43,862 bases of DNA from Gammaproteobacteria bacterium (GTDB lineage: Bacteria; Pseudomonadota; Gammaproteobacteria; Nevskiales; Nevskiaceae), in assembly GCA_026398815.1 (NCBI GenBank), contig JAPLSA010000027.1:1-43862 (forward strand), written 5' to 3'. The notes under the pieces are model-generated. The model worked only from the letters and a program-made list of their open reading frames with translations, was not told the origin of the DNA and made no database searches. This document shows, in pieces, positions 23,424 through 35,860 of the stretch. Numbering within the stretch: the first letter of the stretch is position 1; every line of letters starts with the position of its first letter. Both the position numbers and the translations under genes were made by a program.

Positions 23424-23437
23424 GCGCTAGCTAGCGC
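23424..23437. repeat. 14-base perfect palindrome at the acvB stop codon
   Basis: GCGCTAGCTAGCGC reads the same on both strands and includes the TAG stop of acvB. It occupies the 28-base gap between the converging mltD and acvB genes. It may be chance or a transcript-end structure; no T-tract follows. Confidence 0.5.
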
Positions 23438-24951
23438 TTGACCACCCGCGCCGTCGGGATCGCCGCCAGCAGCTTGCGGGCCAGCCCTTCGTAGTCGCCA
23501 TCGAAATGGTGGCCGCCGGGCATCTTCAGCGTGGTCAACTTCGGCCCGCTCAAGCTGCCGCAGATGGCGTCCTCGTCTTCCTCGCCCCAGACGCACAGCA
23601 GCGGCGGGTTCGACGGCACCGCCTGCAGCCGCGCCACTTCCGGGCGCGTCGGCAGTCCGCCACCGGTGCTGCCGACCCAGCTGGTCAGGTGGAATTCGAA
23701 CTGCGCGCGTTCGGCAAGCCCGAGCAGGGCGACCAGCGCCAGGTCGTTGCGGGTGGCGGCCGGCAGCCGGTTCAGCGCGAACGGCAGCACGTCCGCACCC
23801 TGCGAGTAGCCGATCAGCAGCACGCGCGTCCGTTCGAGCTTTTGGCGGTAGTGGCGGATGATCCGCTCCAGATCGGCCGCGAAGCTTTCCGGCGTGCGCT
23901 CGGTCCAGAAGTAGCGCAGCGAATCGATACCGACCACCGGCATGCCGGCGCCGGCCAGATGGGCCGCCAGTTCCTTGTCGATGCCGGCCCAGCCGCCGTC
24001 GCCGGAGACCAGCACGGCGAAGGTATCGGCCGGAGCGCCGGCAGCGCTGGCCGCCTCGACCTCAATCACCGGCAGGTCGTTCAGCGCACCGGGTGGTGGC
24101 GGCAGGCTGTCGTGGCTCTGGGTGGTCTCCAGGCCGGCCACCGCATCGCGGTAGGCGTTGCGCCAGTCGGCGACGGTGGAAAACCCGTGGCCGACCTTCG
24201 GCACCGTCACCAGCCGGGCGTTGGGCATGCCCTTGATGAACGGGCCGACGGTGGAGAGCGGGCAGACCTGGTCGATCTCGCCATGCAGGTTGACCCACGG
24301 CGCGACCAAGGTGCGGGTGGGCAGGAACTGGATGCCGCCGCTGTCCTTGTCCAGCGGCGCCTGCGCCGCGCCGTTGCCGGCGCAGAACGGCTTGGCGAGA
24401 TTCAGATCCGGGCAGAACGCAGTGGTCATGGCGCCAGTGAAGCTGCCCTTCTCCGCCTGCGCCAGCACGCCGTAGGCGAGCGTGGCGCCGGCGGCATGGC
24501 CGGCGAGGATCGGCGTGAGATAGGTCGGCAGGTGCGCCCAGGCCTGGACGAAATGGCTGAGGTTCTCGAAATCGCCGACCGTGTAAACGCAGTCGCCGCC
24601 ATCGGCCTCGAAGGCACTGAGCAGGCGCGGCGTGTCGATCGCCGCCACCATCGCGCCGTCGGCCACCAGCGCGTCGACCATCGCCTGCGCGCCGCCGCGC
24701 TCGCGCGCGGTCCAGCCGCCATCGCCCGACAGGAACAGCACGAAGGCCTTCGGCGTGCCGATCGGCCGGTGGACGCGGATGCCTTCGAACTTGCCGTGGC
24801 TGAGCGTTTCCACGGCTGGCAACGTCGCCGTCGTCGTGGCTGCGGCTGTCGCCGCAGCCGGCGGCACCGGCGCTGCTGCCGGCGCCGGCGTGGCCGCCAT
24901 CGAGGGCAGGGAGTAGACCGCGAGCGCTGCTGCGAGAACCAGTGATTTCAT
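23431..24951 (-). CDS. acvB: AcvB/VirJ-like periplasmic aminoacyl-phosphatidylglycerol hydrolase
   Basis: AcvB of Agrobacterium and PA0919 of Pseudomonas remove the amino acid from lysyl- or alanyl-PG in the periplasm. This 506-residue product has a signal peptide (cleavage near residue 19) and a long Ala/Pro/Thr linker. Two VirJ-type alpha/beta hydrolase halves follow, each opening with an LSGDGGW or VSGDGGW motif. In the second the nucleophile S383 is intact (GYSQGAD) with acid and histidine later (GEEDEDA, GGHHFDG). In the first the equivalent motif is GHAAG (151-155), lacking serine. Its ATG overlaps the stop of the upstream synthase (ATGA), the classic synthase-hydrolase pairing. Confidence 0.9.
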   Translation of the reverse strand: MKSLVLAAALAVYSLPSMAATPAPAAAPVPPAAATAAATTTATLPAVETLSHGKFEGIRVHRPIGTPKAFVLFLSGDGGWTARERGGAQAMVDALVADGAMVAAIDTPRLLSAFEADGGDCVYTVGDFENLSHFVQAWAHLPTYLTPILAGHAAGATLAYGVLAQAEKGSFTGAMTTAFCPDLNLAKPFCAGNGAAQAPLDKDSGGIQFLPTRTLVAPWVNLHGEIDQVCPLSTVGPFIKGMPNARLVTVPKVGHGFSTVADWRNAYRDAVAGLETTQSHDSLPPPPGALNDLPVIEVEAASAAGAPADTFAVLVSGDGGWAGIDKELAAHLAGAGMPVVGIDSLRYFWTERTPESFAADLERIIRHYRQKLERTRVLLIGYSQGADVLPFALNRLPAATRNDLALVALLGLAERAQFEFHLTSWVGSTGGGLPTRPEVARLQAVPSNPPLLCVWGEEDEDAICGSLSGPKLTTLKMPGGHHFDGDYEGLARKLLAAIPTARVVKR

Positions 24952-26828
24952 GACTTCCAGATGACTTCCTTGATGCCGCCGGCAATCAGCGCAGCGGTAT
25001 CGACCATGACGCGAGGCAGCACCAGGCCGCCGGGTGATGCGAGATAACGCGGCCGCCACTCGGGCGAGAACTTGTCCTTGTACTGGCGCAGGCCGTCGAA
25101 GTTGTAGAACGGCTCGCCGTAGCGATGCACGATCCGGCCCACCTTGTGCCAGAACGGGGCCAGCGGGTGGCGCTCCAGCCCGGCCAGCGGCGCCATTCCC
25201 AGGTTGAACCAGCGGTAGCCCTGGTCACGGCCCCAGAACATCAGCTCGATGAACAGGAAATCCATCACGCCCTTCGGGGCCTCGGCGCCGTAGCGCATCA
25301 GGTCGATGGCGAATTCCTCTTTCGCCGCACCGCCCAGCCAGAGGTTGGCGAAGGCGACGATGCGCCCCTCGCGCAGCACGCAGGCGCAGTGGAAACGGCT
25401 GAGGTACTCGGGGTCGAAGCGGCCGACCGAGAAGCCCTTTTCGGCGACCGACTTGCCGGTCAGCCAATCATCGGAGATCGCCCGCAGCTCGGGCAGCCGC
25501 GCACCGACCTCGTCCGGCCGCAGCATCGCGAAGCTGGCGCCTTCGCGCGTCGCGCGGTGGTGCTTGTTGCGCTGCTTGGCGTTGCGGGTGCCGTCGAGGC
25601 TGAACTTCGGCAGGAACACGCGGGCTTCCTCGCCGAGCTTGGCCAGCGACAGGCCGAGGTCGAGATACAGCGGCAGCTGGTCCGGCGACACCTGGTAGAA
25701 CACCGGCCAGCAGGCGTTGCGGTCGCACAGCTCGCGGTAGGACCAAGCCAACGATTCGAACTTGGCCGGGTTGCCGGCCGGATCGCCAAGCGCGATCAGG
25801 CTGCGGCCGGAGCGCTGGTACATGATGAAAGCGTCGCCGTCGGCGTGGAACAGCAGCTGCTTGTCGCCGAGCAGCGCCAGATTCGCCAGCGTGCCGCCGC
25901 CATGCCGGGTGATGATGTCGGCAGCCCGCTGCAGCGCGGCGGCATCGGGCGGCTCCGGCTCGGAGCGGGTCGGGCTGAGCAGCTGCCAGAGCATGTAGCC
26001 GGCCATCATCAGCGCCGTCAGCAGGCCGGCGCGCATCAGGCGCGGCGTCTGGTCGTCGAAGGCGAAGCGCCACCACACTTCCTCGCTGAAGCTGAGGTCG
26101 TGGTAGGACAGCATCGACAGCCACACCGCCAGCGCCACCACCGCCAGCGTCGCCGACAGCCACAGCCGGGAGTCGCGCACTTCCAGCAGCGAGGCGCGCC
26201 GGTAGAAGCGCTCGTGGGAGCTGAGCAGCACCAGCAGGATCGCCGACAGCAGCAGCGCTTCCTCGTAATCGAGCCCCTTCAGCATCGACGCCACCGCACC
26301 GGCGGCGAGCAGCACCAGGGTCATCCACCAGGCGCCGTCGAGCCGCCGGTACAGGCCGCGGGCGAGGATCAGCAGCCCCAGGCCGACGGCGCTGCCGACC
26401 ATGTGGGAAAACTCCAGCAAGCTCAGCGGAATCCATTCGGCAAGCCCGGCCAGACGGCTGTCGATCGCCGGTGTCGCGCCGGAAATCAGCAGCACCGCGC
26501 CGGCCAGGAACACCGTGGTGGCCAGCGCTGCGGGGGCCAGCACCTCGATGGCGTCCTGGACCCGGCCGCCGAGCAGCAGCAGGCGCTCGCGGTGCAGGTC
26601 GAGATGGCCGCGCGCGCGCCAGATCAGCAGACCGGCGGCCAGACTGCCCAGCAAGGTGGCGGCGGTGATCAGCAGCGATTGCGCCGCCAGCGCCTTGAAG
26701 AAAGCCACCAGATTCTTGCCGATGGCCCAGCTGGCGAGCGCGAGCACGCAAAGCGCTGGAATCGCGACGGCAAGGCGTCGGCGATCGGCGAACAGCGGGG
26801 CAAGCAGAGCGGTGACGCGAAGCGACAT
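24948..26828 (-). CDS. MprF/LpiA-like aminoacyl-phosphatidylglycerol synthase, short form without flippase half
   Basis: Transfers lysine or alanine from aminoacyl-tRNA to phosphatidylglycerol in the inner membrane, lowering surface charge. The 626-residue product has about seven or eight transmembrane helices (1-320), then a soluble DUF2156 synthase domain (about 335-626) with GDPAGN, VFYQVSP, FSVGRFDP and FNLGMAPLAG blocks. Full-length MprF is usually about 840-880 residues. Here the membrane part matches only the second half (LLEFSHMVGSAVGLGLLILARG, LKGLDYEEALLL), so the N-terminal flippase module seems absent. Start ATG 26828. Coupled to acvB. Lys versus Ala specificity is not decidable here. 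Confidence 0.88.
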   Translation of the reverse strand: MSLRVTALLAPLFADRRRLAVAIPALCVLALASWAIGKNLVAFFKALAAQSLLITAATLLGSLAAGLLIWRARGHLDLHRERLLLLGGRVQDAIEVLAPAALATTVFLAGAVLLISGATPAIDSRLAGLAEWIPLSLLEFSHMVGSAVGLGLLILARGLYRRLDGAWWMTLVLLAAGAVASMLKGLDYEEALLLSAILLVLLSSHERFYRRASLLEVRDSRLWLSATLAVVALAVWLSMLSYHDLSFSEEVWWRFAFDDQTPRLMRAGLLTALMMAGYMLWQLLSPTRSEPEPPDAAALQRAADIITRHGGGTLANLALLGDKQLLFHADGDAFIMYQRSGRSLIALGDPAGNPAKFESLAWSYRELCDRNACWPVFYQVSPDQLPLYLDLGLSLAKLGEEARVFLPKFSLDGTRNAKQRNKHHRATREGASFAMLRPDEVGARLPELRAISDDWLTGKSVAEKGFSVGRFDPEYLSRFHCACVLREGRIVAFANLWLGGAAKEEFAIDLMRYGAEAPKGVMDFLFIELMFWGRDQGYRWFNLGMAPLAGLERHPLAPFWHKVGRIVHRYGEPFYNFDGLRQYKDKFSPEWRPRYLASPGGLVLPRVMVDTAALIAGGIKEVIWKS

Positions 26829-27009: not shown

Positions 27010-28530
27010 ATGTCCAAGAAGCTGATTGCCGCCTACCAGCGGGACCTCGAACAGGCCACGAGCTATGCCGAATGGCGGGAAATCGCCACCGCGCTCGATC
27101 GCCTGGAAGGGGCGGACGCCTGGAAGCAGGACGAGATGAGCGATGACTACGACTACCTGCTGATCAAGGAACGGCTCAACACGCTGCGCGAACTGCGCAA
27201 GTCCGGCGAAGTGCGGCAGCTGGTGTTCCAGCTCGCCGAGGGGCTGCACGGCAACCTCGGCAACGTGGCCGACCCCGTGCTGTACGCCTACGCGCGGGTC
27301 GGCACCAAGAAGCTGGTCGAGGAATACATCGAGGAATCGGCACGCTGCCTGGACTACGTCTGCGTCGGCGATTTCCCGGATTTCTCCAACGACGAGAAGA
27401 TCCTGTTCTTCAAGCGCACCGGCACCAGCTTCGGCCGTTCGGCGCTGCTGCTGTCCGGCGGCGCGACGCTCGGCATGTTCCACCTCGGCGTCATCAAGGC
27501 ACTGTCGGAGGCCAACGTGCTGCCGCGCGTGATCTCGGGCTCCTCGGCCGGCGCCATCATCGCCGGCATGGTCGGCAGCCGCACCGATGACGAACTGCCG
27601 GGCATGTTCGATCCGGAGTCCCTGAGCCTGCAGGCATTCCAGACCGTGAGCCTGCGCCAGGTGCTGGCCGGCAGTGCGCTGATGGACCCGCGCCAGTTGC
27701 TCAACTGCCTCGAACGCAACATCTCGCCGGGCAGCTTCATCCAGGCTTTCGAACGCACCCGGCGCATCCTCGGCGTCACCGTCTCGCCGGCCGAGGCCCA
27801 CCAGTCGGCCCGCCTGCTGAACTATCTGACGGCGCCGAACGTCACCGTGCAGTCGGCCGTGCTGGCCTCCTGCGCGGTGCCGGGCGTGTTCCCGCCGGTG
27901 ATGCTCGACGCGCTGGACTTCGACGGCGTCAAGCACCCGTACATGCGCTCCAAGCGCTGGGTCGACGGCTCGATCGCCAACGATCTGCCGATGTTGCGCC
28001 TGGCCCGCCTGCACAACGTCAACCACTACATCGTCAGCCAGACCAATCCGCACGTGGTGCCGTTCATGCGCGAGCAGAACCCGCGCCGCCGCTCGGTCGC
28101 CGATGTCGTGCAGCACGTCGCCACCACCGCGACCCGCGATGTCCTGAAGCTGACCCGCAACTACGTCGGCGCAGCGGTGCCGGGCCGCATCGTCGACATG
28201 CTCAACGACGTGCTGCAGCAGCGTTACAGCGGCGACATCAGCTTGTTCCCGAAGCAGTCGCCGACCCAGCTGATGCGGATGTTCTCGAACCCCTCGCAGG
28301 CGGCGATCGCCAGCTTCATCCGCGACGGCGAACGCGCCACCTGGCCGAAGCTGGAGCGCATCCGGCTGCAGACGCGCATTTCCCGGGCCTTCGAGGACTG
28401 CCTGTTCTGGCTCAAGGAACAGGGCCTGCGCCGGCACGGCGAAGTGCGCCGGGGACCCGCCCCGCGCAGCGCCGGCGAGCGGCTGAAACTGGCGGCGGTC
28501 GACGGTCGGCGCACCGGCGACAACGGCTGA
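27010..28530 (+). CDS. Patatin-like phospholipase with N-terminal DUF3336
   Basis: A probable lipid acyl hydrolase of 506 residues. An N-terminal DUF3336-type helical region (about 1-140), as in yeast TGL3/4/5 lipases and bacterial relatives, precedes the patatin core. The core has the oxyanion loop GGATLG (150-155), nucleophile S179 in GSSAG (177-181) and the catalytic aspartate in WVDGSIAND. There is no signal peptide, so it is cytoplasmic or membrane-associated. It diverges from the aminoacyl-PG synthase/hydrolase operon across 181 bases, making a local phospholipid-modification cluster. Substrate (phospholipid or triacylglycerol) unknown. Confidence 0.92.
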   Translation: MSKKLIAAYQRDLEQATSYAEWREIATALDRLEGADAWKQDEMSDDYDYLLIKERLNTLRELRKSGEVRQLVFQLAEGLHGNLGNVADPVLYAYARVGTKKLVEEYIEESARCLDYVCVGDFPDFSNDEKILFFKRTGTSFGRSALLLSGGATLGMFHLGVIKALSEANVLPRVISGSSAGAIIAGMVGSRTDDELPGMFDPESLSLQAFQTVSLRQVLAGSALMDPRQLLNCLERNISPGSFIQAFERTRRILGVTVSPAEAHQSARLLNYLTAPNVTVQSAVLASCAVPGVFPPVMLDALDFDGVKHPYMRSKRWVDGSIANDLPMLRLARLHNVNHYIVSQTNPHVVPFMREQNPRRRSVADVVQHVATTATRDVLKLTRNYVGAAVPGRIVDMLNDVLQQRYSGDISLFPKQSPTQLMRMFSNPSQAAIASFIRDGERATWPKLERIRLQTRISRAFEDCLFWLKEQGLRRHGEVRRGPAPRSAGERLKLAAVDGRRTGDNG

Positions 28531-28703: not shown

Positions 28704-29303
28704 GTGACCATCAACAAGGAACTCACCCCCGTCACTGCCAGGGGCGAAGCCACCCGTCGCAAGCTGCTGGCCGCTGCGGAAATCGAAATCGGCGAAAAAG
28801 GTTTCCACGTCGCCTCGGTCAGCTCGATCACCACCCGCGCCGATGTCGGCCAGGGCACGTTCTATCTGTACTTCCATTCCAAGGACGAGATTTTCCTGAC
28901 CCTGGTCCGGGACATCGGCTCGCGGCTGCGCAAGCACATGGCGCTGGCCATCGAAGGCATCCGCGACCGGGTCGCCGCCGAGCGCCGCGGCCTGGAAGCG
29001 TTCTTCGAGTTCGCCCATGCCCATCCCGGCCTCTACCGGATCGTCCAGGAGTCCCAGTTCGTCGACGAGGCGGTGTTCCGCGAGTACTACGAGCGGCTGG
29101 CCGAAAGCTATGCCGAAGACCTCGCCGAGGCGACCGGTCGCGGCGAACTGGCGCCGGGCAATGCCGTGGCCCGGGCCTGGTCGATCATGGGCATTGGCCA
29201 CTTCATCGGCATGCGCTGGTGCCTGTGGCAGCAGCAGGTGCCGGGGCCGGACGTGGTCGACGGCGTGATGGACCTGATCGCGCGCGGCATCGCGCCGCGC
29301 TGA
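28704..29303 (+). CDS. TetR/AcrR-family transcriptional regulator
   Basis: A 199-residue repressor-type protein with an N-terminal helix-turn-helix (about 37-57, including VGQGTFYLYFHSKDE, the classic TetR recognition-helix region). The all-helical ligand-binding domain (about 65-199) contains a glycine-containing helix IMGIGHFIGMRWCLW. It starts at GTG 28704, preceded by a poor Shine-Dalgarno. It heads the acyl-CoA ligase, barrel, barrel, lipase run with a 102-base gap. The likely ligand is therefore an acyl-CoA or fatty-acid-like compound, as for FadR/PsrA-type TetR proteins; that is inference from context. Confidence 0.9.
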   Translation: MTINKELTPVTARGEATRRKLLAAAEIEIGEKGFHVASVSSITTRADVGQGTFYLYFHSKDEIFLTLVRDIGSRLRKHMALAIEGIRDRVAAERRGLEAFFEFAHAHPGLYRIVQESQFVDEAVFREYYERLAESYAEDLAEATGRGELAPGNAVARAWSIMGIGHFIGMRWCLWQQQVPGPDVVDGVMDLIARGIAPR

Positions 29304-29362
29304 TCGCCGCGGGCGGCCGGGGAGCCGACAGCGCGTTCAAGTCGCTGGCCGGCGGGGGCATC

Positions 29363-29377
29363 CGTATCATCGGTACG
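29363..29377. promoter_or_regulatory. Candidate operator for the TetR regulator
   Basis: CGTA-N7-TACG is a small inverted repeat in the gap between tetR and the acyl-CoA ligase gene. It overlaps a TATCAT (29365-29370) that could be a -10 box. No good -35 is visible and the arms are only four bases, so this is a weak candidate. Confidence 0.3.
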
Positions 29378-29405
29378 TTTGTTTCCCTTTTCGTCGATCC
29401 GCCCC

Positions 29406-30914
29406 ATGTCACGACCCGATGTCATCGGCTTCGCGCGCCTTGCCCTGCCCGGGCACGCGGCGATTCGTGCCGGTGACCAGGTCTGGACGTACCGGGATCT
29501 GGCGTTCCGCGCCCGCCGGCTGGCCTGGCGCCTGCACGCACGCGGCATCGGCGGCGGCGACCGGGTGGCGATCCTCAGCCAGAACCACATCGCCCACTTC
29601 GACCTGCTGATCGCCGCGCCGATGGCGCAGGTCATCGCCGTACCGCTGAACATCCGTCTCGGCCCGGCGGAACTGGCCGCCCAGGTCGCGCAGGTGACGC
29701 CAAAGCTGCTGCTGGTCGACGCCGGCTCAGAAGCCGTTGCCGCCACGCTGGGCCTGCCGACCTTGCGCCTGGCCGACTACGAGCGCTGGCTCGCCGACGT
29801 TCCGGCCGCCGCCCAGCCGCCGGCCGGCGACGCGCCGGGGCTCGACGGCATCCACATGATCCTGTTCACCGGCGGCTCCACCGGCGCGCCGAAGGGCGCC
29901 TGCCTGCCGTACCGGCAGACGCTCGGCAACGCCGACGACAGCGCCGAAGCCTGGGCGCTGCGGCCGGGCGATGTCGTGATCCAGGCCACGCCGTGTTTCC
30001 ACGCGGCCGCCAATGTGCTGAGCCTGCCGCTGCTGCGGGTCGGCGGCACCGTGGTGCTGGCGCCGCGCTTCGATCCGGCCGACTACCTGCGGCAGGCGGT
30101 TGCCCACCGGGCGACGATCCTGTTCATGGTGCCGACCATGTTCGCGGCGCTGGCCGATGACCCGGGGTTCGCCGGCGCCGACCTGTCCTCGGTGCGCATG
30201 GCGCTGTCCGGCGGCGCGCCGTGTCCGCAGACACTCTGCGACCGCTACCTGCGCCGCGGCATCCGCTTCCGCTGCGGCTTCGGCATGACCGAGGCCGGCG
30301 TCAACTGCTTCCTCGGCGGCGATCCGGCGGTCGACAACCCGCAGGCGGTCGGCCTGCCGATGCCGCGCGTGCGGGTCGACGTCCGGCGCGGCGACGGCAG
30401 CCGCACCGACGACGGCGAAGTCGGCGAGCTGTGCCTGTCCGGCCCGCAGATCTGCGCCGGCTACTGGGGCCCGCATGACGCCGCCGCCGCGTTCCGCGAC
30501 GGCTGGCTGCACACCGGCGACCTCGCCCGCCGCGACGCCGCCGGGCGCATCACCATCCGTGGCCGGCTCAAGGACCTCTACATCTCCGGCGGCGAGAACA
30601 TCTATCCGTCGGAAATCGAGGCCGCCGTGCTGGAATCGCCGGAGATCGCCGAGGCCTGCGTGTTCGGCTGGCCCGACGCCCGCTGGGGCGAGGTCGGCAT
30701 CGCCTTCGTGGTGCGCCACCCCGGGCTGCCCTACGACGAGGCCCAGCTGCGCGCGGCGCTGCGCCAGCGGCTGGCCGGCTACAAGATTCCGGCCGCGTTC
30801 GTCGTGGTGCCGTCGCTGCCGCGCAGCGCGGTCGGCAAGGTGCTGAAGACCGAAGCCCGCGAGCAGTACCGCGCGATGCTGCAGGACACCGGCCGATTCG
30901 GAAACGTGGCCTGA
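29406..30914 (+). CDS. Acyl-CoA synthetase (AMP-binding, class I adenylate-forming enzyme)
   Basis: Activates a carboxylic acid, probably fatty or aromatic, to its CoA thioester through an acyl-AMP. The 502-residue product has an N-domain P-loop at 154-164 with sequence FTGGSTGAPKG; the usual first residues are TSGTTG or TSGSTG, so the second Ser is Gly here. Then come FGMTEAG (A5), GWLHTGDL (A7), RLKDLYISGGENIYPSEIE (A8) and catalytic lysine in VGKVLKTEAR (A10). The start ATG 29406 is preferred over an upstream ATG (29379) because the protein then starts with the usual short lead. Its stop shares a base with the next gene's start (TGATG). Confidence 0.9.
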   Translation: MSRPDVIGFARLALPGHAAIRAGDQVWTYRDLAFRARRLAWRLHARGIGGGDRVAILSQNHIAHFDLLIAAPMAQVIAVPLNIRLGPAELAAQVAQVTPKLLLVDAGSEAVAATLGLPTLRLADYERWLADVPAAAQPPAGDAPGLDGIHMILFTGGSTGAPKGACLPYRQTLGNADDSAEAWALRPGDVVIQATPCFHAAANVLSLPLLRVGGTVVLAPRFDPADYLRQAVAHRATILFMVPTMFAALADDPGFAGADLSSVRMALSGGAPCPQTLCDRYLRRGIRFRCGFGMTEAGVNCFLGGDPAVDNPQAVGLPMPRVRVDVRRGDGSRTDDGEVGELCLSGPQICAGYWGPHDAAAAFRDGWLHTGDLARRDAAGRITIRGRLKDLYISGGENIYPSEIEAAVLESPEIAEACVFGWPDARWGEVGIAFVVRHPGLPYDEAQLRAALRQRLAGYKIPAAFVVVPSLPRSAVGKVLKTEAREQYRAMLQDTGRFGNVA

Positions 30915-32095
30915 TGCCGGCGCCGGTCCGGGCCCGCGCCGCGCTGGCGGCCCTCGGCATGCTGGTCGCCGGACCGCTGGCCGCCCATCCCGACCTGCTG
31001 CTCGACAGCGGCCGCTACCTGGCTCGCCACCCCGGTCTGACCGTCGGCCTGAGCCTGCTGCACGACCCGCGCGACCGCAGCTTCGGTGCCGACGGCCAGC
31101 GCCAGCCGGGCGTGGCGCCCGCCTACGGACCCGGCAGCGAGTTTCCGCTGACCCAGGTCACGGTCGACCTCGAAAACCATTTCCCGCTATTCGAAGCCGA
31201 AGCCCTGCCATTCGTCTCGTCACGGCTGTGGACCGCCCGCGCGGTGTTCGGCTATGCCGAAACCGCGACCCGCGGACCGCTCGGCGCCGCTGCGGTGGCC
31301 GACGGTGCACCGGCATCGAAGTCCGGCATCCACGACCTCGACCTCGCCTTCGGCCCGGTGCTGTTCGGCTCGCAGGACTGGCGCAGCCGAAGCGCCACGC
31401 CGCTGTCGCTGATCCTGCTCGGCGAGCTGCGGGTGCCGATCGGCGCGCAGGACCCGGCTGCGCCGAACAATGTCGGCGGCGGCGTGTTCGCCTGGGGCGC
31501 CCGGCTGGGCGGCCACTGGCAGGCACAGAACCCCCAGCTGCGCGGCCTGCGGCTGGATGCCGGCCTGCGGCTGCGCTGGTACGAGGCCGACCAGGAACCG
31601 GCCTTCAACGCCCAGACGCCGACCCAGGCCGGCCGCGATCTCGAATTCGACGCCACGCTGGCCCAGCGGCTGTGGCGGAACGTCCACGCCCAGGTGTCGT
31701 ACTACCGCCGCGACGGCAGCGCCAACGAATACCGCCGGCTTCGCAGCAGCGCACAGCCACCCGAGGCCGGCCCGCTGCAGGACAGCTTCCCCGACCCCGC
31801 ACCGCTGCGCGACGCCGGCAGCCGCGAGCAGCGCCTGCAGCTCGGCCTCGGCGCCTTCCTGACGCCGCAGCTGTGGCTGTCGGTGGCCTGGACCCGGCCG
31901 TTGTCCGGCGACAGCGGCCGCATCACCGTGCCGTACCTGCAGCAGCCGGCCGGCTGCGAGGGGCTCGGCAGCTGCCGGCCGACCGCGAACGGCAGCGACG
32001 TCGTCGATGGCCTCGGCAACGCCCGGAGCTATGCGTCGGACAGCGTGCTGCTGCGTCTGCGCTGGCAGCCGCGCGCCAGCCGGGAGCAGCCATGA
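30914..32095 (+). CDS. Outer-membrane beta-barrel protein 1 (MetA/phenol-transporter-like)
   Basis: A 393-residue exported protein with a signal peptide (cleavage near residue 24, LAA-H). The rest is made of alternating amphipathic strands with aromatic girdles and Gly/Asn/Asp turns, ending in SVLLRLRWQP. The pattern resembles the PF13557 'MetA pathway of phenol degradation' porin-like family, but I cannot assign a substrate. It is translationally coupled on both sides (TGATG with the ligase, ATGA with the next barrel), so it must belong to the same pathway. Confidence 0.75.
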   Translation: MPAPVRARAALAALGMLVAGPLAAHPDLLLDSGRYLARHPGLTVGLSLLHDPRDRSFGADGQRQPGVAPAYGPGSEFPLTQVTVDLENHFPLFEAEALPFVSSRLWTARAVFGYAETATRGPLGAAAVADGAPASKSGIHDLDLAFGPVLFGSQDWRSRSATPLSLILLGELRVPIGAQDPAAPNNVGGGVFAWGARLGGHWQAQNPQLRGLRLDAGLRLRWYEADQEPAFNAQTPTQAGRDLEFDATLAQRLWRNVHAQVSYYRRDGSANEYRRLRSSAQPPEAGPLQDSFPDPAPLRDAGSREQRLQLGLGAFLTPQLWLSVAWTRPLSGDSGRITVPYLQQPAGCEGLGSCRPTANGSDVVDGLGNARSYASDSVLLRLRWQPRASREQP

Positions 32096-33279
32096 TCCGG
32101 CGGCTGGCGGTTGCCGGCCTGCTGCTGGCCGCACCGGCGCAGGCCGCGATCGTGTTCACCCCGCATGTCTCGGAATACGCCGTGCTGCCGCGCGGCACCT
32201 ACCTCGACACCACGGCGGTGCACAGCTCGATCGACCGGATCTGGGACGCCGACGGCCACAAGGTGCCACTCGGCAACACGGCGATCGCGCCGGGCGAGTC
32301 GATCAGCGCCACGCTGCTGCTGGGACGCTACCTGTGGATCGGCAATCTGTTCGAGGACAGCGGCCTGCCGTTCTTCGACGATCGCAACCAGGTGCTGCGG
32401 GTGATCGCCACCGCCGGCCGGCAGTCGGCCAGCGGCGCGATCAACGAGCTGTCGCGCGAGTTCGGCCAGACCTCGCGCGGCAGCGGCTTCGGCGACCTGT
32501 TCCTGCTCGCCGGCGTCTACGGCCGGCAATACCACCACGGCCCGCTGCACGGCAACGGCCTGTACACGCTGACGGTCAAAGCCCCGGTCGGCAGCTTCCA
32601 GCGCGATTCGCTGCTCAACCCGGGCACCCGCTACTGGAGCGTGATGCCGCAGCTGTCGCACCACCAGGACTGGTTCGGCCGGCTGTCGATCGACGCCACC
32701 GCCGCGCTGCAGATCAACAGCGCCGCCTCGGAAACCGCGTACGGCGGGCTGACGCCGTCGAAGCCGGCCAGCGTGGTCAACCTGGAAGCGACGTTCGCGT
32801 GGAAGTTCAGCCCGCAGTGGTTTGCCGAGGCCGGTCTGAGCCACTACCGCAGCCTCGGCAGCAACCGCTACGACGAGGTCAGCCTGAACATCGCCAACCA
32901 GCCGGTCCCGCCGAGCACCGCCTGCAACACGCTGCTGGTGCCGGCGGCGCAGTGCAACCTGGCCCGCCTGTTCTATCTGGCGCCAGTGGCCGGCGAGTAC
33001 CGCGATCGCGGCATCCGCAACAGCATCGCCACCGCCGGCTTCAGCTATGTCTATCGCAGCGCCGCCGTGGCCAGCGTCCGCGCCGCACTGCCGGTGGCCG
33101 GTCGCGGCTCGCAGTTCACGCTGCCCTACCACGTCTGCCTCAGCGCGCCCTGCACGGCCGACAACGAACTGCCGGGGCTGCGCCAGACCGCCCGGCTCAG
33201 CGGCGTGCAGGAAGCGGCGGCGATCAGCGCCTCGCCGTATTTCGAGCTGCGCCTCGTGCTGCTGTTGTTCGCACCTTGA
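32092..33279 (+). CDS. Outer-membrane beta-barrel protein 2
   Basis: A second, clearly different barrel-like protein of 395 residues with a signal peptide (cleavage after A18, AQA-A). Features are long amphipathic strands, LNPGTRYWSVMPQLSHHQDW and AWKFSPQWFAEAGLSHYRS segments, and an aromatic or hydrophobic end FELRLVLLLFAP. Two cysteine pairs (ACNTLLVPAAQC and VCLSAPC) suggest disulfide-closed surface loops. It has the same broad PF13557-like look as the first barrel but little direct similarity. The start overlaps the previous stop (ATGA), and its own stop overlaps the TTG start of the lipase. Confidence 0.75.
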   Translation: MIRRLAVAGLLLAAPAQAAIVFTPHVSEYAVLPRGTYLDTTAVHSSIDRIWDADGHKVPLGNTAIAPGESISATLLLGRYLWIGNLFEDSGLPFFDDRNQVLRVIATAGRQSASGAINELSREFGQTSRGSGFGDLFLLAGVYGRQYHHGPLHGNGLYTLTVKAPVGSFQRDSLLNPGTRYWSVMPQLSHHQDWFGRLSIDATAALQINSAASETAYGGLTPSKPASVVNLEATFAWKFSPQWFAEAGLSHYRSLGSNRYDEVSLNIANQPVPPSTACNTLLVPAAQCNLARLFYLAPVAGEYRDRGIRNSIATAGFSYVYRSAAVASVRAALPVAGRGSQFTLPYHVCLSAPCTADNELPGLRQTARLSGVQEAAAISASPYFELRLVLLLFAP

Positions 33280-34718
33280 AGCGCGCCGTGCCGCTGCTGG
33301 TGCTGGCGCTGGCCGCCTGCGCGACCGGCGGCGAGCCGCCGCCCCGCCCGCATGAACGCGCCTTTCCCGATGGCTTCCGGCCGCCGCTGAGCCAGGCCAC
33401 CGGCCGGCCGGTCTACGGCTGGGGCGGCGCCCGCCGGCAACCGGAGGCCGCCGAGAACGCCAGCCCAAGCCGCACGCCGGTGCTGTTCATCCACGGCAAC
33501 ACCGAGGACGCCACCTTCTGGGATGCCGCGCGGCGCAGCTTCCGCGAAGCCGGCTGGAATGACGACGAACTCTGGGCGCCGAGCTACGGCTGGGCCTCGA
33601 CCGCCCGCTTCGATGCCAACGACGCCACCGCCGTGACGCTCGACGCCTTCGTCGACGAGGTACAGCGCTATCTCGGCGGGAAGAGCGGCCGGCCGATCCG
33701 CCAGTTCGACATCGTGGCGCATTCGCTCGGCGTCACCGCCGTGCGCCAGTGGCTGACCCAGAGCAACCGCTGGCACCAGGTGCGCAGCTTCGTCGCCGTG
33801 GCCGGCGCCAACCACGGCGTCTGGACGGCCAGGCCGGACGCGCGCGGCCCCAGCCGCACGTCGAGCTTCGAGCTGTATCGCGGCAGCCCGTGGCTGGCCC
33901 AGCTGAACGCCGGCGGCGAAACCGTCGGCGCGATGCGGACGATGACGCTCTACGACGGCACCGGCCGCTACGACACGCTGTTTCCGGCAGAGGACGCCGA
34001 CAGCCCGGCGCTGGCCGGCGCGGTCAACATCGCCTTCAACCGCGAGGCGCGCGGCTGGGCTGGTGGCCATGACCATCGGGAACTGGCGAGCGCGCCGGCG
34101 ACCCTGGCAGTGATCGCCGATTTCCTGCGCGCCGGCCCCGAGCCGCTGCCGAACGCCGCGCCGCCGACCATCGTCCGCGACGGCGACCAGCTGCACGCCG
34201 CGCCCGCCGAAGCCCGGCTGCACTGCGCCGGCGATGGCCGCGATCCCGATCGCCAGACGCCGCCGCAGGCCACGGTGACGCTGCCGCCGGGCCAGTGGCT
34301 GAGCTGCTACGCGCACAGCCCGGCCAGCGGCCTGTCGAGTCCGCTCGCCCGCCATGCCGCCGCGGCCGGGCGTGGTAGTAATGCCGCGCTGCAGCTGAAC
34401 GCCGATCCCGCCGGCGGGCCGTTTCCGCAGCCGGTGACGGTGACGCTGCGCGCCAGCGATCCGGCGGCGCTGATCGTCTACTCGATCACCGGCCGGCAGC
34501 CGGACAGCGGCAGCGCCCGCTATCGCGGCCCGCTCTACCTGCCGAGCCCGGTGGCGCTGACCGCCGTCGCCATCACTCCGGACGGCCGGCGCTCGGCACC
34601 GCTGCGGCTGCGCTACGACATCGGCCTCGAGGTCGACGAGGCGCTGCACAGCCTGCAACGCCAGCTTGACCCGACTGCCGCGGCTGACGACCGGGGCGAC
34701 CGGCCCGACGGCGACTGA
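33276..34718 (+). CDS. Lipoprotein alpha/beta hydrolase (lipase/esterase) with C-terminal chitobiase-like beta domain
   Basis: A surface or periplasmic ester hydrolase of 480 residues. The TTG start at 33276 overlaps the previous stop (TTGA) and gives a perfect lipoprotein signal: MKRAVPLLVLALAAC with Cys15, followed by Ala, so outer-membrane sorting is expected. The hydrolase domain has the oxyanion segment LFIHGNTEDATFW, nucleophile S150 in VAHSLG and histidines in GGHDHREL (265 and 267). After a linker, about 385-465 resembles a CHB_HEX_C-type immunoglobulin-like domain (PVTVTLRASDPAALIVYSI, then ALTAVAITPDGRRS). The nearest families are class-2 lipases and extracellular polyester depolymerases; the substrate is unknown. 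Confidence 0.8.
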   Translation: MKRAVPLLVLALAACATGGEPPPRPHERAFPDGFRPPLSQATGRPVYGWGGARRQPEAAENASPSRTPVLFIHGNTEDATFWDAARRSFREAGWNDDELWAPSYGWASTARFDANDATAVTLDAFVDEVQRYLGGKSGRPIRQFDIVAHSLGVTAVRQWLTQSNRWHQVRSFVAVAGANHGVWTARPDARGPSRTSSFELYRGSPWLAQLNAGGETVGAMRTMTLYDGTGRYDTLFPAEDADSPALAGAVNIAFNREARGWAGGHDHRELASAPATLAVIADFLRAGPEPLPNAAPPTIVRDGDQLHAAPAEARLHCAGDGRDPDRQTPPQATVTLPPGQWLSCYAHSPASGLSSPLARHAAAAGRGSNAALQLNADPAGGPFPQPVTVTLRASDPAALIVYSITGRQPDSGSARYRGPLYLPSPVALTAVAITPDGRRSAPLRLRYDIGLEVDEALHSLQRQLDPTAAADDRGDRPDGD

Positions 34719-34781: not shown

Positions 34782-35549
34782 ATGGAATCGAAAATCGTCT
34801 TCGTCACCGGCGCCAGCGCCGGCTTCGGCGCCGCTATTGCCCGCCGCTTCGTCGCCGAAGGCCATCGGGTCATCGCCGCCGCCCGCCGCACCGACCGCCT
34901 CGACGCGCTGCGCGCCGAACTGGGCGCCGCCGTGCTGCCGGTGGCGCTCGATGTCACCGAGCGCGCCGCGATCGAAGCCGTGATCGCCGGCCTTCCGGCC
35001 GACTGGGCGGCGATCGACGTGCTGGTCAACAACGCAGGGCTGGCGCTCGGCCTCGAACCGGCGCAGCGCGCCAGCCTCGAGGACTGGGAGCGGATGGTCG
35101 ACACCAACATCAAGGGCCTGATGACCATGACCCGCACCGTGCTGCCGGGCATGGTCGCGCGCGGCCGCGGCCACGTGATCAACATCGGCTCCACGGCCGG
35201 CGAATGGCCGTATCCGGGCGGCAATACCTACGGCGCGACCAAGGCCTTCGTCCGCCAGTTCACCTTGAACCTCAGAGCCGATCTGGTCGGCACCGGGGTG
35301 CGCGCCACCGACATCGAGCCGGGCCTGTGCGGCGGCACCGAGTTCTCGGCGGTGCGCTTCCATGGCGATCAGGCCAAGGCCGATGCCGTCTACGCCGGCA
35401 CCGTGCCGCTGTCGGCCGACGACGTCGCCGACGCCGTGCACTGGGTGGCCTCGCGCCCGGCCCACGTCAACATCAACCATCTGCAGCTGATGCCGGAATG
35501 CCAGGCGATCGGGCCGCTGGCGGTGAAGCGGCACGAGGCGGCGAACTGA
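34782..35549 (+). CDS. Short-chain dehydrogenase, YdfG-like 3-hydroxy acid dehydrogenase
   Basis: An NAD(P)-dependent oxidoreductase of 255 residues. The cofactor motif TGASAGFG is at 9-16, NNAG at 83-86 and the catalytic S137, Y150, K154. The ARR after strand 2 (A34-R36) favours NADP. The family (YdfG) oxidises L-allo-threonine, serine and 3-hydroxypropionate, and reduces malonic semialdehyde. It begins 63 bases after the lipase gene on the same strand, so it could be co-transcribed with the acyl-activation operon. Its coupling is with the following 103-residue gene (TGATG). Confidence 0.9.
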   Translation: MESKIVFVTGASAGFGAAIARRFVAEGHRVIAAARRTDRLDALRAELGAAVLPVALDVTERAAIEAVIAGLPADWAAIDVLVNNAGLALGLEPAQRASLEDWERMVDTNIKGLMTMTRTVLPGMVARGRGHVINIGSTAGEWPYPGGNTYGATKAFVRQFTLNLRADLVGTGVRATDIEPGLCGGTEFSAVRFHGDQAKADAVYAGTVPLSADDVADAVHWVASRPAHVNINHLQLMPECQAIGPLAVKRHEAAN

Positions 35550-35860
35550 TGGCCGCGTTCAAGGACCACGGCGTCATCGTCATCGACGACGACGAGTTCC
35601 ACTGGAAGGTCCGCCACTGGGTGGGCGGGCCGGTTGGCGGTGGCGGCTGCGGCGGGCTGTCGGTGACGGTGTCGACCGATCCCGGCAAGCGCCGCGAGCT
35701 GATCGTCGAATTCCCGTATGTCGAGTTCGGCCAGGGCAAGCCGAAGTCGGAGATCGGTTTTGCGAACCGGCTTCAGGGCTGCATCGAGGCCGCCATTGCC
35801 GATGGTTATCGCCCGAATTCACGCGGCCGGCCGTGGATCTGGGAAGCCGAGCCGGTCTGA
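35549..35860 (+). CDS. Conserved-looking 103-residue protein, function unknown
   Basis: I do not recognise a named family. The protein is small, soluble, has no signal or membrane segment, and is rich in W, G and charged residues. It contains a glycine loop (VGGPVGGGGCGGLSV) and a C-terminal part NRLQGCIEAAIADGYRPNSRG that looks like a helix followed by a basic turn. It is translationally coupled to the SDR (TGATG), which suggests a related or accessory role. Codon use is like its neighbours. The REP-like pair follows 36 bases after its stop. Confidence 0.7.
   Translation: MAAFKDHGVIVIDDDEFHWKVRHWVGGPVGGGGCGGLSVTVSTDPGKRRELIVEFPYVEFGQGKPKSEIGFANRLQGCIEAAIADGYRPNSRGRPWIWEAEPV

Follow-up and report, generated by a model that had tools for sequence, protein, structure and literature searches.

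What do four genes that overlap end to end, encoding an acyl-CoA ligase, two outer-membrane barrels and a lipoprotein hydrolase, do together, and on which substrate? They lie in a 43,862-nucleotide stretch of contig JAPLSA010000027.1 from the genome of an aquatic Nevskiaceae bacterium (assembly GCA_026398815.1), which was analysed as a whole and is called the window here. In order, they encode an AMP-forming acyl-CoA ligase (LIG, 29406..30914, +; Pfam AMP-binding 241.7 bits, AMP-binding_C 69.4 bits), two barrels of the COG4313/Phenol_MetA_deg type (B1, 30914..32095, +; B2, 32092..33279, +; Pfam PF13557 27.2 and 51.4 bits, respectively) and a lipoprotein serine hydrolase with a TTG start (LIP, 33276..34718, +; Lipase_2 43.6 bits, CHB_HEX_C_1 36.9 bits). 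A TetR-family regulator gene (28704..29303, +; Pfam TetR_N 47.4 bits) ends 102 bases before LIG, outside the overlap chain. Our preferred reading, with a probability of about 0.45, is that the four genes form one sporadic cassette for scavenging hydrophobic esters, the best candidate substrate being an (R)-3-hydroxyalkanoate polyester or oligoester, for example polyhydroxybutyrate (PHB) or its oligomers.

A linked cassette with an empty site

The junctions read TGATG (LIG/B1), ATGA (B1/B2) and TTGA (B2/LIP), with overlaps of 1-4 bases, which bears out the end-to-end overlap described in the initial annotation; Pfam families likewise agree with its naming of a TetR regulator, an acyl-CoA ligase, two barrels and a lipase. 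LIG has an alternative TTG start at 29379. A promoter scan of the locus gave 0 matches, a terminator scan gave a number at chance level and a PHROGs comparison of three proteins gave no match.

Presence was counted over 58 genomes of the family Nevskiaceae, with kinship among genomes uncorrected. LIP was found in 10/58 genomes and B2 in the identical 10, adjacent in 10/10, and B1 in 9/58, every one a LIP carrier (the carrier lacking it is G015). Because LIP and B2 share the same genomes and are always adjacent, and B1 occurs only in LIP carriers, the linkage looks greater than chance. LIG adjoins the barrels in 7/10 carriers; in the other three (G051, G052 and G055) it lies on a separate contig with TetR and a gene for a KASIII-like enzyme (KAS). 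With a threshold of E 1e-110, LIG relatives occur in 12/58 family genomes: every LIP carrier, together with G028 and G035. When 84,980 species genomes were scanned with just two short peptide patterns, 13 loci were recovered; LIP is complete or largely so in 11 of them (L041-L051), and the remaining 2 have a partial relative only. L050 and L051 lie beyond the 58 genomes and retain the order TetR-KAS-LIG-B1-B2-LIP; the rest of the 11 correspond to the nine other family carriers. Eleven relatives keep the four genes together in whole or in part, and the ligase-barrel-barrel-lipase order, proposed earlier as a synteny check, recurs in other genomes, including L050 and L051. Carriers recorded as strains rather than metagenome-assembled genomes (MAGs) are Fontimonas thermophila DSM 23609 and Stagnimonas aquatica THS-13. 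The gene finder used on the relatives' loci shortens some starts. In a class-wide sample, LIP was present in 1/369 genomes, that one being the source of the window. A phage home was rejected, with no relative in a pattern-limited scan of viral contigs, as was a plasmid home, with plasmid matches covering at most 42% of LIP.

Downstream of LIP lie a short-chain dehydrogenase/reductase gene (SDR, 34782-35549, +; 398.2 bits against a 411 cut-off, YdfG-type 3-hydroxy acid dehydrogenase) and a gene for a 103-residue protein (35549-35860, +; no match in Pfam/NCBIfam), both in the neighbourhood of argS. The 103-residue gene is present in 8/18 genomes of the genus, four of the eight without the cassette. 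In the three cassette-free genomes fetched (G011, G022 and G018), the four cassette genes are absent and nothing is substituted (3/3), leaving the order virJ-type, lysyltransferase-type, patatin, TetR, SDR, 103-residue gene, argS; L087 additionally has a small gene ahead of TetR. Because these empty sites keep TetR, SDR, the 103-residue gene and argS, the cassette consists of the four genes LIG-B1-B2-LIP beside a resident regulator. In G016, the SDR-103-residue gene-argS block lies ~100 kb from the cassette, which is flanked there by TetR and by a different, larger SDR. The empty sites and G016 contradict the suggestion that the SDR and the 103-residue gene extend the system, and both were rejected as members.

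Candidate functions and substrate

In the preferred reading, LIP, as an outer-membrane lipoprotein, would hydrolyse a polymeric or oligomeric ester on the cell surface; B1 and B2, as COG4313 channels, would let the hydrophobic products, acids or oligoesters, enter or cross the outer membrane; and LIG would couple the released acid to CoA. This keeps the hydrolyse-import-activate path of the initial annotation as the best reading, the barrels matching a hydrophobic-uptake channel family. Surface location, direction and substrate are what we infer from the features below.

LIP comprises an alpha/beta-hydrolase and an extra C-terminal chitobiase/hexosaminidase-like beta domain (CHB_HEX_C_1), and its PF01674 score exceeds the gathering score of 20.3 bits, placing it in lipase class 2. 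Asp at position +2 is a signal that bears on lipoprotein sorting. LIP has a lipobox (LALAAC-A) whose Cys15 is invariant in 12/12 sequences, and no Asp at +2, consistent with the earlier placing of a lipoprotein esterase at the outer membrane. S150 (AHSLG), D227, D233 and H267 are likewise invariant in 12/12 sequences, giving a Ser-His-Asp triad with D227 and D233 both candidates for the catalytic Asp. Among solved relatives, PhaZ7 ranks first by profile (E 3e-15; 1.2e-10 with the single sequence), followed by LipA, and Foldseek matches of the predicted model (predicted local distance difference test (pLDDT) 75) include an Archaeoglobus fulgidus lipase, a Streptomyces lipase, PhaZ7 and LipA. 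These relatives do not decide between lipase and depolymerase. Second, shorter LIP relatives, 34-36% identical, occur off the cassette contigs at L039 (G053:C23) and L040 (G055:C102).

Both barrels exceed the cut-off of 22 bits for PF13557 (Phenol_MetA_deg), the test used here for COG4313 channels. They had been described as two dissimilar barrels; their identity is indeed low (24%), but they are distant paralogues (E 3e-5) rather than unrelated. The predicted B2 model (pLDDT 77) has 12 strands at least ten residues long and its top fold match is the COG4313 channel 4rl8 (template modelling (TM) score 0.85 by target length, E 1.6e-13), indicating a 12-stranded 4rl8-like barrel; the second match is the export barrel FapF (E 4.8e-8). 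COG4313 channels have been implicated in the uptake of hydrophobic molecules, and SphA in that of sphingosine (PMC4493636).

The fuller operons of relatives bear on substrate and direction; the KAS, reductase and inner-membrane transporter genes that they contain lie outside the window and did not figure in the initial annotation. F. thermophila (L043) and a Nevskiaceae MAG (L045) encode TetR-KAS-LIG-B1-B2-LIP-SDR2-MFS, the last a major facilitator superfamily transporter that is also present in L044, L048 and L049. In L050 and L051, SDR2 is divergent from TetR-KAS-LIG-B1-B2-LIP, which is followed by a small protein and a sodium:solute symporter. Stagnimonas has two loci, B1-B2-LIP-SDR2-MFS and patatin-TetR-KAS-LIG. 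Tested in three relatives, SDR2 scored 330.0 and 315.7, above the TIGR01829 acetoacetyl-CoA reductase cut-off (302.1), and 299.5, below it, and fell well short of 3-hydroxybutyrate dehydrogenase TIGR01963 (177.0, 181.6 and 149.7 against 307.05). KAS (L043:4920-5936, L050:4753-5763 and relatives) exceeded the PRK06840 cut-off of 315 in 3/3 tested (434.3, 446.6 and 395.4) and is present in 7/58 genomes, comprising 6/10 LIP carriers and G035; PRK06840 was found in 0/398 genomes of a phylum sample. Relative to FabH, whose active-site Cys, His and Asn we take to have their accepted roles, the aligned Cys is invariant in KAS and an invariant His aligns to within one residue of the FabH His. In these relatives, SDR2 would run as a 3-hydroxyacyl-CoA dehydrogenase, the KASIII-like enzyme would carry out thiolytic cleavage and the MFS transporter or sodium symporter would act as inner-membrane importer. 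A 3-hydroxy acid substrate is suggested because relatives carry a 3-hydroxyacyl-level reductase together with a thiolase-superfamily enzyme, and import is suggested because a sodium:solute symporter (L050/L051) or an MFS transporter (five loci) accompanies the cassette.

In the window genome, its own PHB locus (L104, G000:C18:35000-50000) could supply the last two steps. This locus encodes a reductase, a thiolase, a PhaZ-type depolymerase, a second reductase (both reductases of the acetoacetyl-CoA type) and a PHA (polyhydroxyalkanoate) synthase-type protein (506.4 against a cut-off of 622.65). A neighbour in L104 resembles PhaR by eye only, with no match at E 1e-60.

Several observations weigh against a polyester substrate. 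By fold, an A. fulgidus lipase is the first match of LIP, Bacillus subtilis LipA fits LIP better over the LipA length than PhaZ7 does over its own, and the PhaZ7 family model NF050060 gives LIP only 56.8 bits of a 450 cut-off, over residues 60-184, for which reason LIP was rejected as a PhaZ7 family member. The LIG family is broad, with a feruloyl-CoA synthetase among its best solved relatives. In KAS, His replaces the FabH Asn in 8/8 aligned sequences, and the resulting chemistry is uncertain. In L045, the cassette is followed by a gene of the acyl-CoA thioesterase II (TesB) type, whose score falls slightly short of the cut-off. Window-type genomes (G000, G013, G016 and G017) lack KAS and MFS and have cassettes without SDR2, so the substrate argument for the window is borrowed from relatives. 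PhaB-like genes also occur in cassette-free Nevskia, and the carrier G017 (91% complete) has a best PhaB-like match of only 36%; because cassette-free relatives also have the reductase and G017 lacks a close one, completion of the route by a host PHB locus is permissive rather than specific, and weak for G017.

Lipids or aromatic esters are possible substrates instead. In long-chain lipid scavenging, LIP would be a true lipase, B1 and B2 would take up fatty acids in the manner of FadL and LIG would feed fatty acyl-CoA into beta-oxidation. The A. fulgidus lipase that heads the fold matches of LIP contains bound fatty acid fragments, the best NCBIfam model for LIG is PRK06187 (long-chain-fatty-acid--CoA ligase; score below cut-off), and both the link of COG4313 to hydrophobic molecules and of SphA to sphingosine (PMC4493636) and the thioesterase-type gene of L045 fit this explanation. 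Against it, a dedicated acetoacetyl-CoA-type reductase and a KASIII-like enzyme are unneeded for a fatty acid, no acyl-CoA dehydrogenase or enoyl-CoA hydratase was found among the neighbour proteins run through Pfam/NCBIfam (part of the flanks), and the MFS transporter is closest to acid/H+ symporter models, although below their cut-offs. We regard lipid scavenging as unlikely, though the likeliest of the alternatives.

The closest solved relatives of LIG, 8weu/8wev, are named as fatty-acyl-CoA synthase and feruloyl-CoA synthetase, and the latter name points to aromatic-ester use, in which LIP would be a feruloyl or aromatic esterase, a COG4313 channel would admit the acid, LIG would form its CoA ester and SDR and KAS would shorten the side chain. 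The nearest model to the MFS transporter is an aromatic acid/H+ symporter, far below cut-off (108.1 of 418.55 bits), and deletion of a Phenol_MetA_deg barrel gene in Pseudomonas sp. NGC7 delayed growth on syringate (PMC12314914). This explanation appears improbable: LIP had no feruloyl-esterase family match in Pfam/NCBIfam searches, and no ring-cleavage enzyme, demethylase or enoyl-CoA hydratase was found among the neighbours run through family searches, again for part of the flanks.

A biosynthetic role, in which LIG, KAS and SDR would build a surface lipid and LIP would be an acyltransferase, would accommodate the membership of KAS in the condensing-enzyme superfamily with its His in place of the FabH Asn, a weak LCAT match in LIP (12.1 bits, E 0.11) and the export barrel second among B2 fold matches. 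The uptake-type channel 4rl8 is a far better match to B2 than FapF is, the PhaZ7/LipA-type Ser, His and Asp candidates are intact in LIP, and sodium:solute symporters work as importers, all of which make biosynthesis very improbable.

Parts of the fuller gene set recur elsewhere, and two such cases count in favour of the preferred reading. G035, a genome in which neither B1 nor B2 has a match, encodes TetR, a TonB-receptor-type protein, a carboxylesterase, a lipase-like protein, KAS, LIG, SDR2 and SDR (L095, contig C94). In the fetched stretch of one haloarchaeal plasmid, a KAS homologue accompanies an alpha/beta hydrolase, an AMP-binding protein and an ABC transporter; two further haloarchaeal plasmids have KAS with an ABC transporter only, in an incomplete gene table. 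In Stagnimonas, TetR-KAS-LIG is followed by a pair of proteins whose N-termini resemble those of lipoproteins, one of them containing NHL repeats (L063:2702-5109, -), and in F. thermophila a DUF1329 protein (431.6 bits; L043:13468-14484, -), which may have an outer-membrane or lipid link, converges on the cassette.

The resident regulator and neighbouring genes

TetR orthologues occur in 35/58 family genomes against 10 for the cassette, and stand next to SDR in the three empty sites, so a regulator confined to the cassette was rejected. Because TetR also occurs without the cassette, its control of the cassette in the window is unproven, and the notion of a path under a TetR repressor is not upheld. 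TetR may be the original partner of the cassette, since it travels with it in relatives. A palindrome, AAACATGAC-N6-GTCATGTTT, precedes TetR in L050; L043 has a perfect 7-base core and L051 shows 2 mismatches of 14. With up to 3 mismatches allowed, the L050 palindrome matches nothing in the window or in L045, which has the gene order of L043, and the upstream regions of Stagnimonas and Nevskia have other inverted repeats or none. The comparison left out L046, which starts at TetR. A shared operator across cassette loci was rejected, the palindrome being absent from the window and L045.

The Stagnimonas neighbourhood reads virJ-type, lysyltransferase-type, patatin, TetR, KAS, LIG. One reading of the history of the site is that a full operon once stood beside TetR and was lost partly or wholly, TetR being a leftover of the old regulation; the other is that the cassette was inserted beside a resident TetR. 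Upstream of TetR in the window is a DUF3336-patatin lipase gene (27010-28530, +). A patatin gene stands ahead of the TetR orthologue in Stagnimonas (L062-L064), at the three empty sites and in window-type Nevskia, where two genes intervene in L042; because it does so with or without the cassette, TetR may serve the patatin gene. Further upstream, on the minus strand, are genes for a VirJ-domain protein (23431-24918) and a phosphatidylglycerol lysyltransferase-type protein (24948-26747); the two also stand together in Stagnimonas and at the three empty sites. The 103-residue gene adjoins SDR and argS at every locus laid out, with one small predicted gene before argS in L041.

Comparison with known systems

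The cassette combines known protein families in an arrangement that we have not found described: among the papers listed by the literature searches, none appears to describe the LIG-B1-B2-LIP set, in line with the earlier remark that it was not recognized as a named system, and nothing was found there on 3-hydroxybutyryl-CoA synthetase. The passage of water-insoluble polyester or lipid breakdown products through the outer membrane of Gram-negative bacteria seems little described, and two reviews of PHA degradation searched for the terms outer membrane, transporter and lipoprotein contain none of them. A conserved operon that pairs a lipoprotein hydrolase with two channels from a family tied to hydrophobic uptake offers a testable case, and hints at what tandem COG4313 channels and the PRK06840 KASIII-like family may do. 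A broader proposal, which we hold tentatively and with more doubt than the scavenging role, is that of a polyester utilisation locus, a counterpart of polysaccharide loci. It would comprise a surface depolymerase, paired COG4313 channels for 3-hydroxyalkanoate oligoesters and a private pathway that activates first, then oxidises and cleaves (LIG, a reductase running backward and a KASIII-like thiolase in which His replaces Asn), and its LIG-B1-B2-LIP half would be gained or lost cleanly at one Nevskia site.

The individual components can be set against characterized proteins. Among the top Foldseek matches of LIP are B. subtilis LipA, which matches only its hydrolase core, and an A. fulgidus lipase (2zyh and other entries) that likewise joins an alpha/beta hydrolase to a C-terminal domain but has a low overall TM score with LIP (0.27-0.29 by query length). 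We know of no operon like LIG-B1-B2-LIP around either. PhaZ7, the extracellular native-PHB depolymerase of Paucimonas lemoignei, is the closest solved relative of LIP by sequence and shares its nucleophile region and lipase-type alpha/beta-hydrolase core, but LIP is a lipoprotein with an added C-terminal beta domain and lies far under the family cut-off. PhaZ7-like lipases are discussed as candidate PHA depolymerases (PMC7830162), so the PhaZ7-like label by itself is weak. Likeness to the COG4313 channels (Pput2725 4rl8, SphA and TcpY) rests on the B2 model and on PF13557 in both barrels, whereas B1 and B2 differ in standing in tandem with a lipoprotein lipase; their precursors are 393-395 residues long, compared with 270-320 for mature COG4313 proteins (PMC4493636).

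At the level of the pathway, the known route of PHB and 3-hydroxybutyrate degradation runs through PhaZ, Bdh, AacS or SCOT, and thiolase (in part PMC7830162). The proposed route would share with it the logic of depolymerase, activation, oxidation and thiolysis. It would differ in that the acid is activated to its CoA ester before oxidation, that the relatives' KASIII-like enzyme replaces thiolase and that the cassette adds outer-membrane channels.

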